A stretch of 26,313 nt of DNA, from IMG/VR virus record IMGVR_UViG_3300045253_000164, positions 1-26,313 of that record; one strand, written 5' to 3'. The DNA is from a virus. Numbering within the stretch: position 1 is the stretch's first letter; each line of letters opens with the position of its first letter. The notes beneath the pieces are model-generated. The model saw nothing but the letters and a program-made list of their open reading frames with translations. It ran no database searches and was not told the origin of the DNA. The translations under genes and the position numbers were made by a program. Below are positions 4,898 through 22,771 of the stretch, piece by piece.

Positions 4898-5196
4898 GCC
4901 GCGCCAGCCGCAACGCCCGTGTCGCCACGCTGTGCGATAGCCGGAGTGCATCGGTGCGCGACCTCGACGCCCAGCGTGTCGCTGAGCCCGAAGCCCGTAC
5001 CTGCCAATTCTGCCACCAGCCCTGGCCCAAGAATGGCCCCGTGTACGACTTCACCCGCGAGCATCTGTCCGGCGAATGCACGCACCCGTCACGGACCTGT
5101 AGCTGCTTCCACTGTCGGCGGGAGTACGGCGTGCAGTCGGTGTGGCTGCCGGAGATTGATCGCCTGGACGTCGAGGCGCTGCGAAAGAAGGGCTGA
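4894..5196 (+). CDS. Cys-rich small protein (100 aa)
   Basis: ATG 4894 overlaps the preceding stop as ATGA. The N-terminal 30 residues are Arg/Ser-rich. Then follow CQFCHQPW, EHLSGEC, CSCFHCRREYGV and a helical C-terminus (LPEIDRLDVEALRKKG). Five to six cysteines plus histidines suggest one or two zinc sites. It is another member of the Cys-rich microprotein series. Function is unknown. Confidence 0.7.
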   Translation: MSRASRNARVATLCDSRSASVRDLDAQRVAEPEARTCQFCHQPWPKNGPVYDFTREHLSGECTHPSRTCSCFHCRREYGVQSVWLPEIDRLDVEALRKKG

Positions 5197-5199
5197 CCG

Positions 5200-5373
5200 A
5201 TGTTCCGCTGCGAGATGTGCCTGAGCCCTGCCACCCACTGCTGTAGCGGCCTCGACGTACCGGCGCTGTACTTCTGCGACCGCTGCATCGTGCTGCATGA
5301 GGCGCAGTGTGACGCGGTGGCGACGGAGACAGCGGCGGTTGTCGCGATAGGGGACGGGAGAATCCAAGCATAG
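5200..5373 (+). CDS. Zinc-ribbon microprotein (57 aa)
   Basis: ATG 5200 follows the previous stop by three bases, and the frame runs 58 codons to TAG 5371-5373. The product opens MFRCEMCLSPATHCC and continues with FCDRCIVLHEAQC, giving two CxxC pairs and a short helical tail. It fits as the last gene of the microprotein cassette before a 74-bp gap that carries a hairpin and a strong ribosome site. Function is unknown. Confidence 0.65.
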   Translation: MFRCEMCLSPATHCCSGLDVPALYFCDRCIVLHEAQCDAVATETAAVVAIGDGRIQA

Positions 5374-5398
5374 GACACGCGACGCGGCGCGTTACCGG

Positions 5399-5445
5399 GC
5401 CAGCCCTGCCGCGCTTCGGGCTGGCTCAAGGAGAGAAGGAGAAAG
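5399..5445 (+). promoter_or_regulatory. 8-bp stem hairpin followed by a strong double ribosome site
   Basis: GCCAGCCC (5399-5406) pairs perfectly with GGGCTGGC (5418-5425) across an 11-base loop. No T-run follows, so an intrinsic terminator is unlikely. The stretch AAGGAGAGAAGGAGAAAG directly after it contains two GGAG cores upstream of ATG 5448 and is the strongest translation signal in this arm. It separates the microprotein cassette from the replication-like block and may mark an RNA processing or regulatory point. Confidence 0.5.
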
Positions 5446-5447
5446 AG

Positions 5448-6005
5448 ATGAAAGTATCCGACCAATTTCCGAGCAAGTACCTCCGCGTTGAAGATTTAGA
5501 CGACGCCGACATGACGTTGACCATCAAGCGCGTCACCACGGAGGACTTGGGACAGGGCAACGAAAAGCAACGCAAGATCATCGTCTACTTCCGCGAGTGC
5601 GAGAAGGGGCTTGCCTGCAACAAGACCAACGCCGGCGTCATCGCAAAGCTCTATGGCGACGACACGGATATGTGGCTCGGCAAGCGCATCACGCTCTGGC
5701 CGAACCATGACGTGGAGTTCAAGGGCGAGATCGTCTCGGCGATTCGCGTGCGCAGCAAGGCGCCGGCACCGACAACCAATGGCGCAGCGACGAACGGCAA
5801 CGGCGTACTGACGTTCAAGAACGCTGTCGAGCTGTGCGAGCGCAACGGCATCGCCGTGCAGGAGCTGAAGGACTACCTGAAGTCGTGCGGCGTGAACGGC
5901 TGGACGCCGGACACCGCGGCGCAGTGCTCGGAGCTGACGCAGAAGTTCATCGCGGGGCTGGTCCCGCCCACCACGGACGCCAACGAAGACGTGCAGTTCA
6001 GCTAG
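5448..6005 (+). CDS. Conserved phage protein with SSB-like acidic C-terminal tip (185 aa)
   Basis: The start ATG has a very strong ribosome site. The N-terminal 105 residues are beta-rich (MKVSDQFPSKYLRVEDLDD, MTLTIKRVTTEDLG, KIIVYFRE, LACNKTNAGVIAKLYGDD, WLGKRITLWP) and match my memory of a widespread phage protein that lies near recombination and replication genes. A Thr/Asn/Ala linker leads to a helical segment with LCERNGIAVQELKDYL, a small winged or SAP-like helix pair. The tail ends NEDVQFS, resembling the DDIPF tip of single-strand DNA-binding proteins. An ssDNA-binding accessory role is plausible but unproven. Confidence 0.75.
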   Translation: MKVSDQFPSKYLRVEDLDDADMTLTIKRVTTEDLGQGNEKQRKIIVYFRECEKGLACNKTNAGVIAKLYGDDTDMWLGKRITLWPNHDVEFKGEIVSAIRVRSKAPAPTTNGAATNGNGVLTFKNAVELCERNGIAVQELKDYLKSCGVNGWTPDTAAQCSELTQKFIAGLVPPTTDANEDVQFS

Positions 6006-6008
6006 GCC

Positions 6009-6359
6009 ATGCCCAGCGTCAGCGATACCTACGGCTCGCAGTTGGAGCCCGATCAGCTCTACGCCCAGCTCTGTGCCGCCGGCGAAGCATGGGCCGACCA
6101 CGAAGCTGCCGCATCGTTGCTGGAAGAGACACGGAAAGTCGTGCTCGCCGAGCTGAAGAACCAGAGCGCTGCGAAGAGTGACGCCGCAGCCGAGACGCTG
6201 GCCCTCGCAGACCCAGCGTATCGGCTGCACGTCACCAACATGGTGAACGCTCGGCGCGACGCCAACGTAGCCAAGGTGCGGTACGTGTCGTTGCAGATGT
6301 TGGTGGAGCTGCGACGTAGCCAGGAATCGACACGGCGAGCCGAGATGAAGCTGGTATGA
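6009..6359 (+). CDS. Helical conserved phage protein (116 aa)
   Basis: The gene starts three bases after the previous stop. The product is nearly all helix: YAQLCAAGEAWADHEAAASLLEE, TRKVVLAELKNQ, YRLHVTNMVNARRDANVAKVRY and LRRSQESTRRAEMKLV. From memory it is a recurrent companion of the preceding gene type in phages, with the conserved core V-x-x-MV-x-AR-x-x-AN-x-AKVRY. The function is not known. A coiled-coil partner or scaffold in the replication block is the likeliest inference. It overlaps the next gene by ATGA. Confidence 0.75.
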   Translation: MPSVSDTYGSQLEPDQLYAQLCAAGEAWADHEAAASLLEETRKVVLAELKNQSAAKSDAAAETLALADPAYRLHVTNMVNARRDANVAKVRYVSLQMLVELRRSQESTRRAEMKLV

Positions 6360-6787
6360 GTAACTTGGGTCTGTCGATAGAAAATCGCATCGCCGAAGCC
6401 ACGGCGAACGGCGACGAGCCAATCCGGGGGCAGCAAAACCAACTGCTGCTGGATCTCGACACCGCTGAGGACATTGAGCGTCTAGCAGCACGGCTCGACA
6501 AGCTGCGCGAATTTCTCGCCGTTGAGCAAGTCGATTCGTGGACGTCGCAGTCCGGCAAGGGCCGGCACGTCGTGTTAGCCGTGACGACTGCCCAGCACTT
6601 CAACGGGCGCAATCTGACGGTCCCCGAACAGTTGCTGCTGCAGATGTGGCTGGGCTCCGACCCCCTACGAGAGCTGCTGAGTCTCATGCGGTACTGGCAA
6701 GGCTGTGAGCAGCCGAGCTTGCTGGTGCGCCCGAAGGCAGCGGCGCCAGCGCCGTCACCGACGGCTGAACCCGACATCATCTTTTGA
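6356..6787 (+). CDS. Conserved phage protein, possible miniature primase-fold relative with SSB-like tail (143 aa)
   Basis: ATG 6356 overlaps the preceding stop (ATGA). Three conserved-looking blocks occur in order: LLLDLD (residues 30-35), SGKGRHVVL (66-74) and LGSDPLRELLSLMRY (99-113). They recall motifs I (DxD), II (sxH) and the region around motif III of archaeo-eukaryotic primases, but the protein is less than half the usual size and the last catalytic Asp is not obvious. A Pro/Ala linker then leads to a C-terminal tip EPDIIF, similar to the SSB C-terminal peptide. It is certainly coding; the function is inferred only loosely. Confidence 0.75.
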   Translation: MSNLGLSIENRIAEATANGDEPIRGQQNQLLLDLDTAEDIERLAARLDKLREFLAVEQVDSWTSQSGKGRHVVLAVTTAQHFNGRNLTVPEQLLLQMWLGSDPLRELLSLMRYWQGCEQPSLLVRPKAAAPAPSPTAEPDIIF

Positions 6788-6799
6788 ACGGAGGCACCA

Positions 6800-8275
6800 A
6801 TGCGCGTGAGCAGAATCAATATCAAGAATGTGATGGGCGTTACTGAGCTGGAGATTCAGCCCGGCGTCGTCACGTTAATCTCTGGCCGAAACGGTGCGTC
6901 CAAGACTTCGATCATCGAAGCTGTGCGCTCCGCACTTGGAAAGGGGCATGACGCTACGCTCCTTCGCGCGGGCGAAGAACGCGGCGACGTAGTGCTCGTT
7001 CTCGACGACGGGGCAGTCATCCGCGAGAAGATCACCGCCAAGGCGACTGAACGGAAAGTCGAGCACCCGACCTTCGGCAAGATCAGTAAGCCCGCCGACT
7101 ACCTGTCCAAGCTCATCACCGGCGAAGCCGCCAACCCCGTGGCCCTACTGACCACCAAAGGCCCGGAGCTGACCAAGCTGTTCCTCGAAGCTATCCCGCT
7201 GCACGTCACCTCACAGCAGATCGCCGCGATCACCGGGCAGCCGGGGCACGTCGAGTCCTACCGCTTCCCGTGCGAAACCCAACACGCGCTCGTTGTGTTG
7301 GCTGGTGTCGAGAAGAACCACTTCGACAAGCGTACCGACGTGAATCGGGGACTCAAGGAAAAGCAGGGTGCCATCGAGCAACTGACCGGCACGCTCCCCC
7401 CCATGCCCGAAGGCGGCGGCGATTGGGCGGCGACGGTGGAGGACCTGCAGCAGCAACGGGAAGCGCTGGCCGCACAGCGAGCCACGGCCCTGGCCACGGT
7501 CACCGCCGACACGGAACTGGCAGAGCAACGCCGGACCAACGAGCAGCAACAGGAAGCCCAGCGCATCAAGGCCGACATCACTGCCCGCAAGACCGCCATT
7601 GAGACGGAGTGCAACGCCGCCATCGAGCGCATCAAAGCCGACGCCGCACTGAAGCTGGAGTCGCTGAAAACCGAGCTGGCGCAACGGCTGGCAGAATCCG
7701 CCGACGCCCAGCAGGCGATTGCCGCCAAGGATACCGCCGAGCTGACCGAGCGCCGCGAGAACGTCGAGGCGCAATACCTGCCCCAGCTGGTGGAGCTGGA
7801 CCAGCGGCTGGCCGAAGCCTCAGCGAATCTCGAGCAGCAGAACCGCGCCCAAGGGCAACGCGACCTGGTCGCGCAGTACGCCGCCGACGCTGCGACGCTC
7901 GACGCGCAACGCACGAAGCTCACCGAGGTCATCGAAGGCATCCGGGCGTTGACGGTATCGCTGACGGCCAACCTGCCCATCAAGGGCGTGGAGATTGTCG
8001 ACGGTGAAGTGCGAGTGGATGGCGTGCCCTGGAATCGCGTGAATACCGCAAAAAGGATCCAGCTCGCCGTTGAAGTCGCCAAGCTGCACGCGGGGACACT
8101 CGGGCTGCTGCTCGTCGATGGGCTGGAGAATCTGGACCCGCCGACGTTCACCGCGTTCTGCAAGGAGATCGAAGCGTCGGGCTGCCAGCTCATCGGCGCC
8201 CGCGTGACGGAAGGGCCGTTGCGGGTGGAGTCGCATCAGGCGCCTGTCGGCGATGATGCAGGCGTGACGTTCTAG
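6800..8275 (+). CDS. SMC/Rad50-like ATPase (491 aa)
   Basis: GGAGGCACC precedes ATG 6800. The N-terminus is that of RecF/Rad50/SbcC-type ATPases (MRVSRINIKNVMGVTELEI) with a P-loop GRNGASKT at residues 29-36, where the usual second Gly of GxGK is Ser. A coiled coil spans about residues 190-370, rich in Glu, Gln, Ala and Lys. The C-terminal ATPase half has AKRIQLAVEVAKL (417-429) where the ABC signature helix should be, and Walker B LLLVDGLENLD at about 436-446. It is shorter than SbcC and lacks a visible zinc hook. It probably acts in phage DNA recombination or end processing; no partner nuclease is adjacent. Confidence 0.88.
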   Translation: MRVSRINIKNVMGVTELEIQPGVVTLISGRNGASKTSIIEAVRSALGKGHDATLLRAGEERGDVVLVLDDGAVIREKITAKATERKVEHPTFGKISKPADYLSKLITGEAANPVALLTTKGPELTKLFLEAIPLHVTSQQIAAITGQPGHVESYRFPCETQHALVVLAGVEKNHFDKRTDVNRGLKEKQGAIEQLTGTLPPMPEGGGDWAATVEDLQQQREALAAQRATALATVTADTELAEQRRTNEQQQEAQRIKADITARKTAIETECNAAIERIKADAALKLESLKTELAQRLAESADAQQAIAAKDTAELTERRENVEAQYLPQLVELDQRLAEASANLEQQNRAQGQRDLVAQYAADAATLDAQRTKLTEVIEGIRALTVSLTANLPIKGVEIVDGEVRVDGVPWNRVNTAKRIQLAVEVAKLHAGTLGLLLVDGLENLDPPTFTAFCKEIEASGCQLIGARVTEGPLRVESHQAPVGDDAGVTF

Positions 8276-8309
8276 TCGAGCGCGAGCGCAAAGGAGGGGT
8301 GTGGTGGGG

Positions 8310-9962
8310 ATGAACGTCGATGGTCTCATTGTGGATCTCTTCGCCGGCGGCGGCGGCGCGAGCGTGGGCATCGAAGCCGCGATCGGTCGCCCCGTCGACC
8401 TGGCGATCAATCACGACAAGGTCGCCATGGCCGTGCACAAGGCGAACCATCCGACGACGCAGCACCTGCCATCCGACATCTGGGAGGTTCGCCCGGAGGA
8501 TGCCACGCGCGGCCAGCCCGTCGATCTGCTCTGGGCCAGCCCGGACTGCACGCACTTCTCGGTCGCAAAGGGCGGCAAACCGCGCAAGCAGAAGATTCGC
8601 TCGCTCGCCTGGGCTGTCGTTCGTTGGGCGAAGGCGGTGCGCCCGCGCGTGATCTTCCTGGAAAACGTCAGCGAGTTTCGCGGATGGGGGCCGCTTGGTC
8701 CTGACGACAAACCCGACAAGAAGCGGATGGGCGAGACGTTCAAGCGGTGGAAGGCCAAGCTCGAACGCCTCGGCTACGACGTCGATTACCGCATCCTCGA
8801 CGCGTCGCTGTACGGCGCACCGACCCGCCGGCGCCGCTTGTTTCTCGTCGCGCGATGCGATGGGGAGGCGATCTGCTGGCCGGATCCCACGCACGGGCCG
8901 GGCAAGTTGCCGTTCCACACCGCGGCGGAGTGCATCGACTGGTCGATCCCGTGCCCGTCGATCTTCGACCGCAAGAAGCCGCTCGCGGAGAAGACGCTCT
9001 GGCGCATCGCGCAAGGGATTCGGCGTTTCGTGCTGGAGAACCCGGCGCCGTTCATCGTCAAGTTTCGCGGGAACTCCAGCGGCGCGGACATTGATGAACC
9101 GCTGCCGACCATCACTTCCGGTGCTGGGTCGCGGCGGCCGGCTGGGGCCGCGCACGCCCTTGGGATCGTCACCCCCAGCATCGTCAAGGTGAACTACGGC
9201 AAGCAGGAGGCGCGCGGCGAGGCAATCACCGAACCGCTGACCACGGTCACCGCAACTCAGCGCGGCCATGCACTCGTCGCGCCCACGCTGGTACAGACCA
9301 GCTACGGCGAACGGAAGGGGCAACGGCCGCGCTATCTGGACCTGCACCAGCCACTCGGCACCGTCGTGGCCGGCGGCCAGAAGCACGCGCTGGTCTCGAC
9401 CTTTCTGGCGAAGCACTTCGGCGGGCACATGACACCGGGCGCGCCCCTGGAGAAGCCCCTCGATACCGTCACCGCGCGCGACCACCATGCACTGGCTGCC
9501 GCGACGCTGGTGAAGTTCCGCGGCAACGAAGCGAATGGGCACCCCGGCTGCGCACCGGTCGATGAGCCGATGCCGACGCTCACGGCACACGGTACTCATA
9601 TCGCCGAGGTGCGCGCGTTCCTGACTGCGTACTACGGAGCCGACGGCACCGGGGGGCAGGAGCTGCTAGAGCCGCTGCGCACCATTACCACCAAGCACCG
9701 GCTCGGCTTGGTCACGATCGAGGGCACCGACTACCAGATCGTCGACATCGGCATGCGCATGTTGCAGCCGCACGAGTTGCTCCGCGCGCAGTTCGGGCGC
9801 TTCGCCGCCGGCTACGATCTCTCAGCCGCGGTCGGCAAACGCGGCAAGCGGACGCAAGAAGCGCAGGTGCGGCTGATCGGCAATAGCGTGTGCCCCGAAG
9901 TTGCCGAAGCCGTGATCGCAGCGAATCTGCCGACCGATGAAGCGAAGAGATATGCAGCCTAA
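8310..9962 (+). CDS. DNA (cytosine-5) methyltransferase, orphan phage type (550 aa)
   Basis: It transfers a methyl group from SAM to C5 of cytosine in a specific DNA sequence. Motif I is DLFAGGGG (from D9), motif IV SPDCTHFS (catalytic C80, with PDC instead of PC), motif VI ENV (118-120), motif VIII RRRRLFLVA (173-181) and motif X GNSV (524-527). Between VIII and IX the target-recognition region is long (about 262-470) and contains six degenerate copies of a unit centred on EPLxTVTA. GTG 8301 and GTG 8304 are in-frame alternative starts; ATG 8310 lies 12 bases from AAGGAGG. No restriction gene is nearby, so protection against host restriction is the likely role. Confidence 0.93.
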   Translation: MNVDGLIVDLFAGGGGASVGIEAAIGRPVDLAINHDKVAMAVHKANHPTTQHLPSDIWEVRPEDATRGQPVDLLWASPDCTHFSVAKGGKPRKQKIRSLAWAVVRWAKAVRPRVIFLENVSEFRGWGPLGPDDKPDKKRMGETFKRWKAKLERLGYDVDYRILDASLYGAPTRRRRLFLVARCDGEAICWPDPTHGPGKLPFHTAAECIDWSIPCPSIFDRKKPLAEKTLWRIAQGIRRFVLENPAPFIVKFRGNSSGADIDEPLPTITSGAGSRRPAGAAHALGIVTPSIVKVNYGKQEARGEAITEPLTTVTATQRGHALVAPTLVQTSYGERKGQRPRYLDLHQPLGTVVAGGQKHALVSTFLAKHFGGHMTPGAPLEKPLDTVTARDHHALAAATLVKFRGNEANGHPGCAPVDEPMPTLTAHGTHIAEVRAFLTAYYGADGTGGQELLEPLRTITTKHRLGLVTIEGTDYQIVDIGMRMLQPHELLRAQFGRFAAGYDLSAAVGKRGKRTQEAQVRLIGNSVCPEVAEAVIAANLPTDEAKRYAA

Positions 9963-17299: not shown

Positions 17300-18286
17300 C
17301 TAGGCCGCTTGCGCCGTCGGCACCAACGCGTATCGCGCGTACAGCGCTGTCGCGTCGGCGGTCAGCACCTGGCGGTCGATGTCCTCAACGGGCCGACCAC
17401 CGGAGAGTGCCGCCCACTGTTCATCGGTGACGTTCAGCGGCCGCGCTTGCTGAATCGGCAGCTCAGGGGGCAGTGCCCCCCACTTCCCGCGGAAGAGTTC
17501 CCCGTTGCGCCGGAAGGTGGTCTCGTTGCTCTGCGCCAACGCCGGATTGCTGCGAATGGTCAGCGAGCAGTCGTGACGGAACAGGGCACCAGGATCACAG
17601 ACCGCCCGCACGCCGGCGTACTGCATGCGGACATGGTAGTCGTTGTCTTCGAAGTAGGCCGGGCGATACCGGGCATCGAAGAGCCCCCAGTCCCACGGCG
17701 ACATGAACGCCGCCGGCGAGGGTTCGTTGCGTTCTCGGGCCTCATGCTGTCGCTGCATTTCCACGCCAGCATCCCACTTCCCGACAATCTCGATGCACGC
17801 CGGCGTCAGGAGGAAAAAGGAGAAATCCGGCGTCGGTCGCACAGGATCGGTCGGCGCGGCCGCGGCCACCGGTTGTTCAGGTGTGTCGTAGGGAACGGCG
17901 GTGCCGGTCACGAACAGGGCGCCGGCGTCGGTGAGGGCCACCAGCCGCTCGATCGTCCCGGGCATCGGGAGCGTGTCGTGTCCGCACACCAGAATGCGGG
18001 TTGCGCCATTGGCGAGCGCGAAGCGGATCCCCATGTTCCACGCGGCCGCTGCGCCAATGTTCGTTTGATTCGCAATGATCATGATGCCCTGCGGCACCAT
18101 GGGCACCTCGCTGCCGTTCGCCAGCTGGCCCTTGAGCGCCATCAGCCATTCAATCGTGCCGTCGGTGCTTTGCTGATCGACGAGGACAATCCGAAAGGGA
18201 ATGTCGAGCATCGTTTGCGTGAGTTGCGCCAGCAGCCGCTGGACGTGCTGCAGGGCGTTGAGAGTCGCGACGACGATGTACAGCAT
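17300..18286 (-). CDS. Family-2-type (GT-A) glycosyltransferase (328 aa)
   Basis: ATG 18286 shares its A with the previous stop (TGATG) and is preceded by AAAGGA. GT-A landmarks: IVVATLNALQHVQRLL at the N-terminus, VLVDQQSTDGT (D37), NQTNIGAAAAWNMGIRFAL (73-91), ILVCGHDT (HD at about 103-104, the DxD-like position), AYFEDNDYHVRM and FRHDCSLTIRSN. It should transfer a sugar from a nucleotide-sugar to an unidentified acceptor. The DxD metal motif is altered to CGHD, which may affect metal use. A GT-B glycosyltransferase lies two genes upstream in the same operon. Confidence 0.88.
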   Translation of the reverse strand: MLYIVVATLNALQHVQRLLAQLTQTMLDIPFRIVLVDQQSTDGTIEWLMALKGQLANGSEVPMVPQGIMIIANQTNIGAAAAWNMGIRFALANGATRILVCGHDTLPMPGTIERLVALTDAGALFVTGTAVPYDTPEQPVAAAAPTDPVRPTPDFSFFLLTPACIEIVGKWDAGVEMQRQHEARERNEPSPAAFMSPWDWGLFDARYRPAYFEDNDYHVRMQYAGVRAVCDPGALFRHDCSLTIRSNPALAQSNETTFRRNGELFRGKWGALPPELPIQQARPLNVTDEQWAALSGGRPVEDIDRQVLTADATALYARYALVPTAQAA

Positions 18287-18570
18287 CAGTTCGATCCTTT
18301 CAGGATTAACGGCGGAACCTGCCGCCACAGCCAGCTGACGAGCCAGGTGCAGACCCGCGCGCGCCAGCCGATCGACTGCCGCACCTCGAGCTCCACACCA
18401 CCAATATCCCCACCGGGGAAGGTCACCCGCATCAGTACCGGGGCCGCACCGGATGATCGATGCGCTTCCGCCAGCACGCGCAACAGCAATTGCTCGAGCG
18501 GGCCGTGTGCGGTGGCGTGTTGCACCCGCGCAATCTCCGCGGCCGTGAGGCACCACGTCTCCGACGTCAT
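18286..18570 (-). CDS. Small protein between two glycosyltransferases (94 aa)
   Basis: ATG 18570 overlaps the stop of the upstream glycosyltransferase gene (ATGA). I reject the longer frame to 18708 because it would overlap that gene by about 140 bases. The product has a helical N-terminal half (LTAAEIARVQHATAH, LEQLLLRVLAEAH) and a beta segment (VLMRVTFPGGDIGGVELEVR). It ends in an aromatic hydrophobic stretch (TWLVSWLWRQVPPLIL) that could touch membrane. The function is unknown. Confidence 0.65.
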   Translation of the reverse strand: MTSETWCLTAAEIARVQHATAHGPLEQLLLRVLAEAHRSSGAAPVLMRVTFPGGDIGGVELEVRQSIGWRARVCTWLVSWLWRQVPPLILKGSN

Positions 18571-19895
18571 GCCGCGATCCGCACGCCGTTCATCTGGTAA
18601 GGAGGTGCCGTCGTGGATGCCGGTGCTTCGAGGCGCGTCACGCAGTGCTGGAAGATTGCCTCCCATTGCGGCACCACGTGGTGTCGCCACGTCAGCCCCT
18701 GCGCCCACTCGCGCCCCCGGCGCCCCATTTCCCGGGCCCGTTCAGGATGAGCCAGCAGATCACACACCGCGGCCGCCATGTCGCGCACGTTCGCCACCGG
18801 GCGGAGTTGGTCATTGTCCGACAGCATGACGTCGCGATGCTCGAGCGGCGGCACGAGCACGCCGCGGTTGTCGGCCAGGAGCTCGGAGAGGCTCGTGTGA
18901 TCCGGGGCGACGACCGGGATGCCGACGGTCATCGCTTCGGACACCGGCAACTCCCATCCCCCACCCCGGCAGGTCGTCAGCAGGACGTCGGCTGCGTTGT
19001 AGATCATGTTGAGGATCGGCAGCGGTACACCCACGCCCTCGGAGAAGTTCAGCGGGAACAACACGGCATCCTGGGGAATCCGCAACTGGTGTTGGATCCG
19101 CGCCAGGTCGAAACCGGCAGCATCCGCTCGATTCATGTGGAGATACAGCTTGGCATCGGGGTGTACTTTGAGGACCTCGCGGAACACTTGCAGGGTCTTC
19201 GGCACGTCCTTGCGCGGCTGGTTGCGGTTCACGTTGACCAGCAATGGTTGGCCCGGTTGCAACCGCAACTGCTCACAACGGAAGCGCACGCGTTCCTCCG
19301 GCGGCACAGGGAAGAACGTGGCGGGATTGGTCCCGTGCGGAATCACGCGCAGCCGCTCCCGTAACATCGGCACGGTGTCCGTCATCACTCGATGGCCATA
19401 CTGGGTATAGGCAACAGGATAATCCACGCACGAGCTCATCCAGGTCAGCCACTCCGGGCGCACATGATCCCCATCGATCGGGAGATATTGCACCACCAGA
19501 AACGGTGGGCGCCCCTCTCGACACTGTTGGCGCAAGGCTTGGATAAGAGCTGGCATGAACGGCTGGAGCTGATTGTTGAACGGGATGGGATGGGTCAGCG
19601 TGAAACTGTCCTCGAGGAGGAACAGCACGTTGAACGGAATTTCGTTGGACAGGAGCTTCTGGCAGAAGCGCACTCGGCCGAACAAATCCGGATCGCGCGA
19701 TGCTGCGACCTGCGCCGGCCAGATCTTGAACGGCATGCCATGCGGATCACCCAGGTAGTTGATGCCGAAGAAGTTCAGGTCATCGATCGGCACCTGACGG
19801 CGTTCAACGAGACCCGTGAACAGTTCCCGCATGACCGTGCCGAATCCCGTGGGAACGCACGGGGCGTTGGCATAGGTAACGATGCGCAGGCCCAT
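18567..19895 (-). CDS. GT-B (family-4-type) glycosyltransferase (442 aa)
   Basis: The start is ATG 19895, sharing its A with the previous stop (TGATG), after AGAGGA; the longer open frame upstream is the shadow of the neighbouring gene. The N-terminal domain opens GLRIVTYANAPCVPTGFG, typical of GT-B donors. The C-terminal domain has NVNRNQPRKD (221-230), then GGGWELPVSEAMTVGIPVVA (311-330), an E-x-x-x-x-E nucleotide-sugar site (E315, E320), followed by SELL. It probably glycosylates virion or host surface components; the acceptor is unknown. Codon use matches its neighbours. Confidence 0.9.
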   Translation of the reverse strand: MGLRIVTYANAPCVPTGFGTVMRELFTGLVERRQVPIDDLNFFGINYLGDPHGMPFKIWPAQVAASRDPDLFGRVRFCQKLLSNEIPFNVLFLLEDSFTLTHPIPFNNQLQPFMPALIQALRQQCREGRPPFLVVQYLPIDGDHVRPEWLTWMSSCVDYPVAYTQYGHRVMTDTVPMLRERLRVIPHGTNPATFFPVPPEERVRFRCEQLRLQPGQPLLVNVNRNQPRKDVPKTLQVFREVLKVHPDAKLYLHMNRADAAGFDLARIQHQLRIPQDAVLFPLNFSEGVGVPLPILNMIYNAADVLLTTCRGGGWELPVSEAMTVGIPVVAPDHTSLSELLADNRGVLVPPLEHRDVMLSDNDQLRPVANVRDMAAAVCDLLAHPERAREMGRRGREWAQGLTWRHHVVPQWEAIFQHCVTRLEAPASTTAPPYQMNGVRIAA

Positions 19896-21487: not shown

Positions 21488-22771
21488 TCAAGCGCATTGT
21501 TGGGCAATTTCACGGAACGCCGCAAAGCGGGACGGTCGGGATTCTCGCACCGGTTGCACCTTCCGCAGCCACCGCGCGAACTCGTCCACGGTGAACCCCC
21601 GGATACCACCGAAGCGTGGCCAGTCCTGCGGATAGGCGCTGCGATAGATACCTTCGGCTTCTGTCGCCGTGCGCGCGCCGAAGATCACCTTGAACTCGTC
21701 GAGGGCGCCAGACGATGCGTGTTGCGTGATGACGAACACCAGGGGGCTGTCGAGGTGCGGCCCGAGGAAGCAGTCGGTCTGTTCGCCATCCTCACCGGTG
21801 CTGCGACAAATGTATCCATATGCGTACGGCAGTACCCGTGACCATGGCGTGCCATCCGCGGTGAATCCGCTGCGTGTGCTGCCGGCTTCGTTCTCTATGG
21901 AGATGCCGAAGCCGTGCAGGTGGACCTTGCGCTTGGGATAGTTGCCCGCCGTGATCTGCGCCAGTGTCGGTTGCGGGCCCGTCGCGGAGACCTCGCGGAA
22001 GCTGGCGAAGCGCGAGAGAGCGACGGTTGTCTCTGGTGCATGCAACGCAACGTCCGGCAACGGCCCACCTAATTCACGAAATGCGGCGAAGCGCGACGGG
22101 CGCCGCGCGGATTCTTCAAACAAGTCGGCATCGCTCGCGCCCCAGGCCTCGCGCTCTGCAGCCATCTCATCGAGCCGGGCTTGGCCAGCGGCGGCGATGT
22201 CCGGGTCGGTCGAATCCGGATCGTCAACGGACTCCAGATCGCAATAGCAATTCCAATGCGACGGGGGCAGTTGCCCGTCGATCTCGTCAAGGGTTTTTCC
22301 ATGCCGCGCAGCACATCCAGCTGTTGTAGTTGGCAACAGTCGAGATCGCCAAGTTAAAACCGTCTGCTCAGTCTGGTTGCCGGCAATCAGGCCTTGGTTC
22401 CACGCCCGCCGTGCTTCCGCAGTGACGCGTGTTTCTAAGTCCCGCAGGGCGCCGCTGGGCTCCTCCGTGTTGATGCCGAGCTCGCGGTAGAGACGGTCCG
22501 TGAAGTCGTCGTAGTTCTCTTGTGCGAGTAGGCTGCGCTCAACGCTAGCGAGCAGGTCACGGCTCAGTGTCGACGTGGCGTGCGTGACCCGATCGGCGAA
22601 CGTCGTCCCCATCCACAGCGCCTGGTCGAGGTTGATAGGTACATTGAGAGCCAGCGGATCGGGCTGATCCTCTGGATGCACCACCTCATCGCGCGGTTCG
22701 GACGGGGGCGGCGCCTTGGGCTTCGGCGCCGGTTTCGGCTTCTCGCCGCGGCGTTCACGTAGACGCGCCAT
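21488..22771 (-). CDS. MuF-type head protein fused to an inorganic-pyrophosphatase-like domain (427 aa)
   Basis: Residues 1-45 are basic and Pro-rich. Residues 46-180 form the MuF/SPP1 gp7 head-morphogenesis region, with RVTAEARRAWNQGLIAG and the metal-site pattern GC-x3-HGK (C153, H157), then LPPSHWNCYC (H172, C175, C177). Residues 270-403 resemble the inorganic-pyrophosphatase-like module of phage polyvalent proteins: HLHGFGISIENEAGS, YAYGYICRSTGEDGEQTDCF, LGP. Three copies of a nine-residue SRFAAFRE-type motif (225-233, 252-260, 413-421) flank that module. MuF proteins bind the portal and are packaged in the head, so the attached enzyme may be ejected with DNA. The domain identity is recalled, not searched. 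Confidence 0.82.
   Translation of the reverse strand: MARLRERRGEKPKPAPKPKAPPPSEPRDEVVHPEDQPDPLALNVPINLDQALWMGTTFADRVTHATSTLSRDLLASVERSLLAQENYDDFTDRLYRELGINTEEPSGALRDLETRVTAEARRAWNQGLIAGNQTEQTVLTWRSRLLPTTTAGCAARHGKTLDEIDGQLPPSHWNCYCDLESVDDPDSTDPDIAAAGQARLDEMAAEREAWGASDADLFEESARRPSRFAAFRELGGPLPDVALHAPETTVALSRFASFREVSATGPQPTLAQITAGNYPKRKVHLHGFGISIENEAGSTRSGFTADGTPWSRVLPYAYGYICRSTGEDGEQTDCFLGPHLDSPLVFVITQHASSGALDEFKVIFGARTATEAEGIYRSAYPQDWPRFGGIRGFTVDEFARWLRKVQPVRESRPSRFAAFREIAQQCA

Follow-up and report, generated by a model that had tools for sequence, protein, structure and literature searches.

The stretch of DNA analysed here, which we call the window, comprises bases 1-26313 (26,313 nucleotides) of a viral record of 90,313 bases (IMG/VR IMGVR_UViG_3300045253_000164). 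Four adjacent genes on its plus strand encode a protein with a predicted OB fold (P0001), a 116-residue protein, a conserved phage protein (P0002), whose gene start overlaps the preceding gene by 4 bases, and an ATPase (Table 1). The products of three of these genes end in a way that recalls the acidic-hydrophobic tip of single-stranded DNA-binding proteins (SSBs). P0001 ends in ...VPPTTDANEDVQFS, P0002 in ...PKAAAPAPSPTAEPDIIF and the ATPase in QAPVGDDAGVTF, with DDAGVTF as its last residues. The first-pass annotation had pointed out the ends NEDVQFS and EPDIIF and the neighbouring SMC-like ATPase, and translation and the profile match of the ATPase bear this out; the tail of the ATPase is absent from that annotation.

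Table 1. Features of the four-gene locus, in window coordinates.
Feature	Position	Strand	Basis or remark
P0001, predicted OB-fold SSB-like protein, 185 aa	5448..6005	+	phrog_21613/phrog_11517, both unknown function
P0001 predicted OB domain, residues 1-102	5448..5753	+	b-b-b-a-b-b model and conserved core in alignments
P0001 extra helical domain (predicted), residues 117-172	5796..5963	+	missing in most relatives
P0001 degenerate tip NEDVQFS, residues 179-185	5982..6002	+	translation and tip scoring
116-aa protein between P0001 and P0002, no family assigned	6009..6359	+	tipless, C-terminus RRAEMKLV
P0002, 143 aa, phage family with invariant DhD, S, H, LGSDPxRE	6356..6787	+	
P0002 Pro/Ala linker and tip-like end AEPDIIF, residues 127-143	6734..6784	+	lineage-specific
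SMC/RecF-like ATPase, 491 aa, phrog_1499	6800..8275	+	profile match
ATPase tip-like end GDDAGVTF	8249..8272	+	in extension missing from 9/9 relatives examined

Elsewhere in the window, the start of the record is a tandem array (1-226) of a 30-base unit in 7.5 copies with 91% matches, and the DNA of a C-5 cytosine methyltransferase gene (8301-9962) is about 71% identical to Myxococcus phage Mx4. The stretch 17300-19895 encodes nucleotide-sugar epimerases, glycosyltransferases and a Nol-like carbamoyltransferase, and such genes also occur in two of our comparison loci (L023, 15651-18376; L024, 8983-11176). On the minus strand, a single protein (21488-22771) combines a weak Mu F-like match with an inorganic pyrophosphatase (InPase) domain.

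Both PHROGs families of P0001 are labelled unknown function, neither P0001 nor 7 of its relatives has a Pfam match of useful score, and no SSB domain is matched significantly by sequence. An alignment-guided scan of IMG/VR found 56 loci of the family and a scan of prokaryote genomes found 15, the latter in Mesorhizobium, Rhizobium, Bradyrhizobium, Methyloceanibacter, a further Hyphomicrobiales MAG and several Planctomycetes-type MAGs; scanning the genome contigs with the first P0001 alignment gave no match. A search of plasmids for a P0001 relative gave nothing, and the family profile did not match any PDB sequence. A keyword search of open-access titles and abstract beginnings returned no paper on the family, which does not establish priority. 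The match of one member (L007) to phrog_18154, labelled 'single strand DNA binding protein', was rejected as evidence for an OB domain, since it covers the linker and tip only.

A typical relative has 110-150 residues and consists of a conserved core of about 100 residues, a linker rich in Pro, Ala and Gln, and a tip. Homologues of 120-145 residues end, for instance, in DDDIPF, DDEIPF, DDQIPW, NDDIPF or DDDVPF. Before counting tips we removed the copy of the window protein (L003), a weak hit (L073) and a locus whose complete ORF is missing (L064). Under a strict rule, which asks for at least two acidic residues near the end and a terminal Pro-Phe/Trp/Leu, 37/54 distinct family members carry a tip, compared with 13/1542 control ORFs of at least 100 residues. 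Nine of these 13 are annotated SSBs and a tenth is a phrog_4932 SSB. With a slightly looser rule and the genome-contig members added, the tip is found in 51/73 members, or in 28/44 clusters at 60% identity. Linker positions have an information content of about 0.4-0.8 bits, and at the end of the protein it climbs to 1.30 for I/V, 1.79 for P and 2.98 for the terminal F. Twelve of the 54 members fall outside all tip classes; two of these twelve (L026 and L054) end in PF and one (L035) has an internal DDIPF. In 10/10 genomes with P0001 relatives the best SSB ends in acidic residues followed by PF, so the tips of the family match those of host SSBs.

The window member is one of the less typical proteins of its family. 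Its tip NEDVQFS lacks the Pro and has one Ser beyond the Phe; a free terminal Phe is important for SSB docking. We scored tails with a position-weight matrix trained on the tips of 37 relatives. NEDVQFS has an in-register score of -13.9 bits, and must therefore be called non-canonical; the score is 6.65 once the last Ser is ignored, and the training tips have a minimum of 11.6 and a mean of 20.2. Two relatives from Planctomycetaceae MAGs end in PVQF and AVQF, showing that a VQF variant exists beyond the window. The resemblance to SSB tips suggested by the first-pass annotation is clear for the P0001 family, degenerate in the window's own P0001 and weak in P0002. The same annotation placed both tails after low-complexity linkers. 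This is right for P0002, in which the Pro/Ala linker leads straight to the tip, but in P0001 the low-complexity stretch (about residues 103-120) lies N-terminal to a helical domain predicted at 123-171, and only about 13 residues of tail follow that domain, with pLDDT <50 at 175-184.

The AlphaFold2 model of P0001, built from 8 sequences, has a mean pLDDT of 78, with about 90 in the core apart from the 31-40 loop. The predicted order of strands and helices, b-b-b-a-b-b, is that of an OB fold, followed by helices at 123-132, 137-146 and 157-171 and a disordered tail. The PDB match with the best probability is PrgE (Foldseek probability 0.96, E 7.6e-3; VIA Z 5.0, rmsd 5.1, 90 aligned). Further matches include baculovirus LEF-3 (Z 4.9, rmsd 4.0, 70 aligned), S. 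aureus SsbA (Z 4.8, rmsd 3.3, 69 aligned), the RB69 ssDNA-binding core (Z 4.8, rmsd 3.4, 80 aligned) and PriB (Z 4.8, rmsd 3.2, 66 aligned). The PDB matches are largely OB folds with low scores, all with Z <6 and Foldseek E >0.001. As a Z <8 may reflect merely a common arrangement, they back the predicted fold and not a function, and any OB protein could give scores like these. P0001 matches models of viral proteins, most of them uncharacterised, better than it matches PDB entries; 15 of these models have E up to 0.001, and DUF669 models rank lower in the Foldseek list (E 5.9e-3 to 1.1e-2).

No PF00436 SSB was found in 49/49 tested viral records with the P0001 family, nor in the window's own 90-kb record, while the same search detected an SSB in 10/12 cultured-phage records used as positive control. 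The test covered 49/55 loci (L012, L029, L030, L032, L046 and L073 were left out) and counts viral records only, with the 15 genome-contig loci outside the count. One of the 49 records (L057) carries another tip-bearing SSB, phrog_4932, so that the absence of PF00436 does not mean the absence of every SSB. In this locus (5001-6564) and in L004 (4968-5809) a tipless family member has a separate SSB with a DDLPF tip as its direct neighbour or one gene away, and the P0001 family may therefore not be a phage's sole or principal SSB. Distant tipless members adjoin genes for exo VIII (L004), DUF3799/exo VIII (L057) and YqaJ (L006).

The wider neighbourhood of the family shows an upstream Sipho_Gp157/Mu Gam-like gene in 8/54 clustered loci and a downstream HNH/DUF968 gene in 11/54, each label being taken from one representative; L003, L012, L029, L032, L046 and L073 were left out of the clustering. 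The accessible part of PMC8093625 reports Gam-like and orf157-like genes upstream of phage erf-ssb modules. No RecT was found in the window's own record. We also considered whether the tip moves to a neighbour once the OB protein has lost its own. This rule was rejected: a convincing neighbour exists only in L004 and L057, and 5/22 tipless or weak loci have any ORF over the threshold (the window and its copy L003 counted separately).

P0002 belongs to a separate conserved phage family unrelated to that of P0001. An ordinary search found no relatives in phages, and patterns from the single sequence found none in viral contigs. The relatives were reached solely via a DNA pattern for LGSDPxRE, a motif which we assumed rather than computed. 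The pattern occurred in 7 stretches, 5 of them with a P0002-like ORF (L102 and L103 being the same protein), and an alignment scan resulted in 36 loci with 31 distinct ORFs. Invariant in 21/21 aligned members are D33, D35, S64, H71, L99-P103, R105, E106 and L108. To judge from the alignment these residues look like an active site, and P0002 is possibly an enzyme (DhD...H...D). The family (window 6356-6787; loci L102-L144) has no significant database family and could be a small nucleotidyl-transfer or primase-like enzyme. Most members end about 20-45 residues past the motif, before any tail. A loose rule for an acidic-plus-hydrophobic end picks out 4/30 motif-bearing relatives (L107, L130, L134 and L139), and since only two of the 30, L107 (DADVDYPY) and L139 (GDDDPPVF), are tip-like, the tail is not a feature of the family. 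The conservation of the last six residues on which the earlier reading depended is hence found in the P0001 family but not in that of P0002. A search without positive control found the P0001 family in 0/29 P0002-family records (of 36 loci). The single-sequence model of P0002 has a pLDDT of 52, and its fold matches were discarded because the model is too poor.

The ATPase matches the phrog_1499 profile over residues 1-472, Walker region included, with E 2.4e-61, and is 35.6% identical to the AAA-ATPase of phage Jeremy; patterns from the single sequence gave no match in viral contigs. In 9/9 cultured-phage loci the phrog_1499 ATPase is tipless, and the window copy has an extra C-terminal stretch. 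An exonuclease is found near the ATPase in 7/9 of these loci (in L016 called by similarity), and the eighth has a PD-(D/E)XK nuclease and RecT. In the seven phages the exonuclease is followed by the ATPase and then by a third protein; L014 and L015 have one additional gene in between. The third protein belongs to phrog_3657 according to tests of L015 and L018, and depositors of the mycobacterial relatives label it RecT-like ssDNA binding. All seven of these putative annealases end in a linker, acidic residues and Phe: NDVF, EDDVF, VDDDPF, VDYF, EDDVF, EPPVF and EDDYF (L013 6371-7519, L014 6396-7529, L015 6968-8089, L016 6383-7654, L017 6408-7529, L018 6377-7825, L019 5384-6682). The phages that encode them also encode a canonical SSB ending in DDDIPF. 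Eight more distant phrog_3657 members are mostly without a tail, only L151 (LKEVF) being loosely similar; the 7/7 tail is therefore a trait of this clade, and the idea that it is conserved across the wider family was rejected. Helicases in three of these phages (L014 1542-3245, L016 1953-3680, L019 840-2570; minus strand) share the C-terminal helical domain of phrog_3657 and end in DKPVF, PQYF and PQYF, respectively. A 35.8-kb record labelled Microviridae (L152, PP511318.1) contains an exonuclease, a putative annealase and a replisome organizer, and its taxonomy label looks wrong.

In the window, the tail scores are 6.65 for the gene at 5448 (last Ser ignored), 4.42 for that at 6356 and 4.89 for that at 6800. 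With a shift of one residue allowed, 29, 39 and 34 ORFs, respectively, score at least as high in a control set of 2150, which also includes true SSBs and many mechanical non-gene ORFs. Among the 99 predicted genes of the phage itself, the best are 5448, 6800, 68190 (EPDDRIVEL) and 6356, and the next one scores -3.3. The tails of P0002 and the ATPase are thus each a 1-2% event among control ORFs, and 3/4 adjacent genes carry tip-like ends. A chance origin of this cluster seems unlikely from the sequences, with the reservation that it was noticed post hoc and that the test was designed only after the tails had been seen.

Several known systems can be compared with P0001. Like canonical SSBs (PF00436), the family has an OB topology as predicted, a disordered linker and, in most relatives, an acidic-IPF tip; it differs in having no sequence match to them, and the window protein in its degenerate tip and extra helical domain. 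SSB_HK620 is described in the accessible part of PMC5928155 as a divergent phage SSB with a working tip NDYPPF, and shares with P0001 the C-terminal tip and a place near recombination genes. The P0001 family, however, has no sequence match to PF05037 (DUF669) among 8 members, no Sak4 was identified, and DUF669 gave 0 hits in the window's own record in a search without a working positive control. Enc34 ORF6 and T7 gp2.5 (DUF2815, PF10991) also combine an OB fold with a C-terminal segment that the accessible part of PMC5686142 describes as acidic. PF10991 matches none of the 8 members and gave 0 hits in the own record, again without a working positive control. PrgE of pCF10, a small OB-fold DNA-binding protein of a mobile element, is a structural match of weak score, and the words 'acidic' and 'C-terminal tail' are absent from the accessible text of PMC11137577. 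The tailed phrog_3657 annealases resemble the window proteins in their ends and occur in phages sharing the ATPase family, but have no homologue in the window's phage.

Taken together, P0001 is probably the SSB-type protein of this phage, from a family outside Pfam, and forms with P0002 and the ATPase what appears to be an operon for ssDNA handling or recombination. The reading of P0001 rests on family membership, the predicted OB topology, the conservation of the tip across the family, the absence of PF00436 from the records and the recombination-type neighbourhood of relatives. The locus is most likely a phage SSB/recombination module, with the P0001 family a new one of a known kind. The first-pass annotation had suggested a possible ssDNA-handling module, which the gene context supports, and that this module mimics SSB to recruit host factors. 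For P0001 mimicry is better replaced by the view that it is probably the phage's own SSB-type protein, and P0002 is not an SSB mimic by descent. In the module as we picture it, the modelled OB domain of P0001 would coat ssDNA, and the predicted disordered tail would present a tip of the kind SSBs use for docking partners, here of the host or the phage. Either NEDVQFS may still work, or the docking job may have passed to the tails of the neighbours, which are lineage-specific additions.

Another possibility is that P0001 is a recombination accessory for ssDNA annealing or loading rather than a replicative SSB, with its tip docking a dedicated phage partner. The exonuclease neighbours of the distant tipless members and the separate tip-bearing SSBs next door in L004 and L057 point in this direction, as does SSB_HK620, whose tip is required for Sak4 stimulation according to the accessible part of PMC5928155. 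The 49/49 records free of PF00436 fit an SSB role better, even if this model misses some SSBs (L057), and we regard the accessory role as a serious but less probable alternative. The acidic tail might instead act mainly within P0001, as a competitor of ssDNA for the OB groove that confers specificity for ssDNA, rather than in recruitment. The accessible part of PMC5686142 reports such a role for Enc34 ORF6 and cites it for T7 gp2.5, and it would tolerate NEDVQFS, in which the charge is kept and the exact end is not. It is unlikely, as conservation in the family peaks at the last two residues, Pro-Phe, beyond what charge needs.

For the other two tails it is about an even question whether P0002 and the ATPase simply have chance C-termini with no docking role. 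They are missing in 28/30 P0002 relatives and 9/9 ATPase relatives, and each score is matched by 34-39/2150 control ORFs; against this, three of the four adjacent genes are tailed, only one other gene of 99 (68190, ending in L) scores comparably, and the putative annealases beside the same ATPase family carry similar tails (7/7). The opposite view, that the recruitment tip is spread over several operon proteins, with that of P0001 decayed and P0002 and the ATPase having gained their own, is speculative and to us rather unlikely. On this view different recombination proteins would each dock on, or block, host SSB-tip pockets. It seems improbable, finally, that P0002 serves the module as a minimal enzyme of the archaeo-eukaryotic-primase-like type (hhhDhD, sxH, D). 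Its LLLDLD, with D33 and D35 invariant in 21/21, fits motif I (hhhDhD/E), and GRH in the window, with H71 invariant, fits motif II (sxH), as these are defined in the accessible part of PMC5862659, while residue H-2 is not small in all rows. Pfam Prim-Pol is hit with E 0.13 at residues 25-81, and the invariant D102 could be motif III. This motif (hD/E) asks for a hydrophobic residue, however, and a Ser precedes D102 in 21/21; no significant match to P0002 was found in Pfam and none to a primase in PHROGs or PDB, and the model (pLDDT 52) is unusable.

With P0001 as a probable SSB-type protein, a likely function can be offered for a phage family that has no Pfam model and an 'unknown function' label in PHROGs, and which occurs, among others, in contigs of Hyphomicrobiales and Planctomycetes-type assignment. 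The same reading hints at a way for phages that lack a PF00436 SSB to handle ssDNA. Should the tip indeed be spread over several proteins of the operon, the tailed annealases (7/7) would mean that mimicking the tip with proteins other than SSBs is a strategy that recurs among phages. The prediction would then be that phage recombination proteins other than SSBs, such as the ATPase and the annealases, bear SSB-type tips to reach the host SSB interactome.
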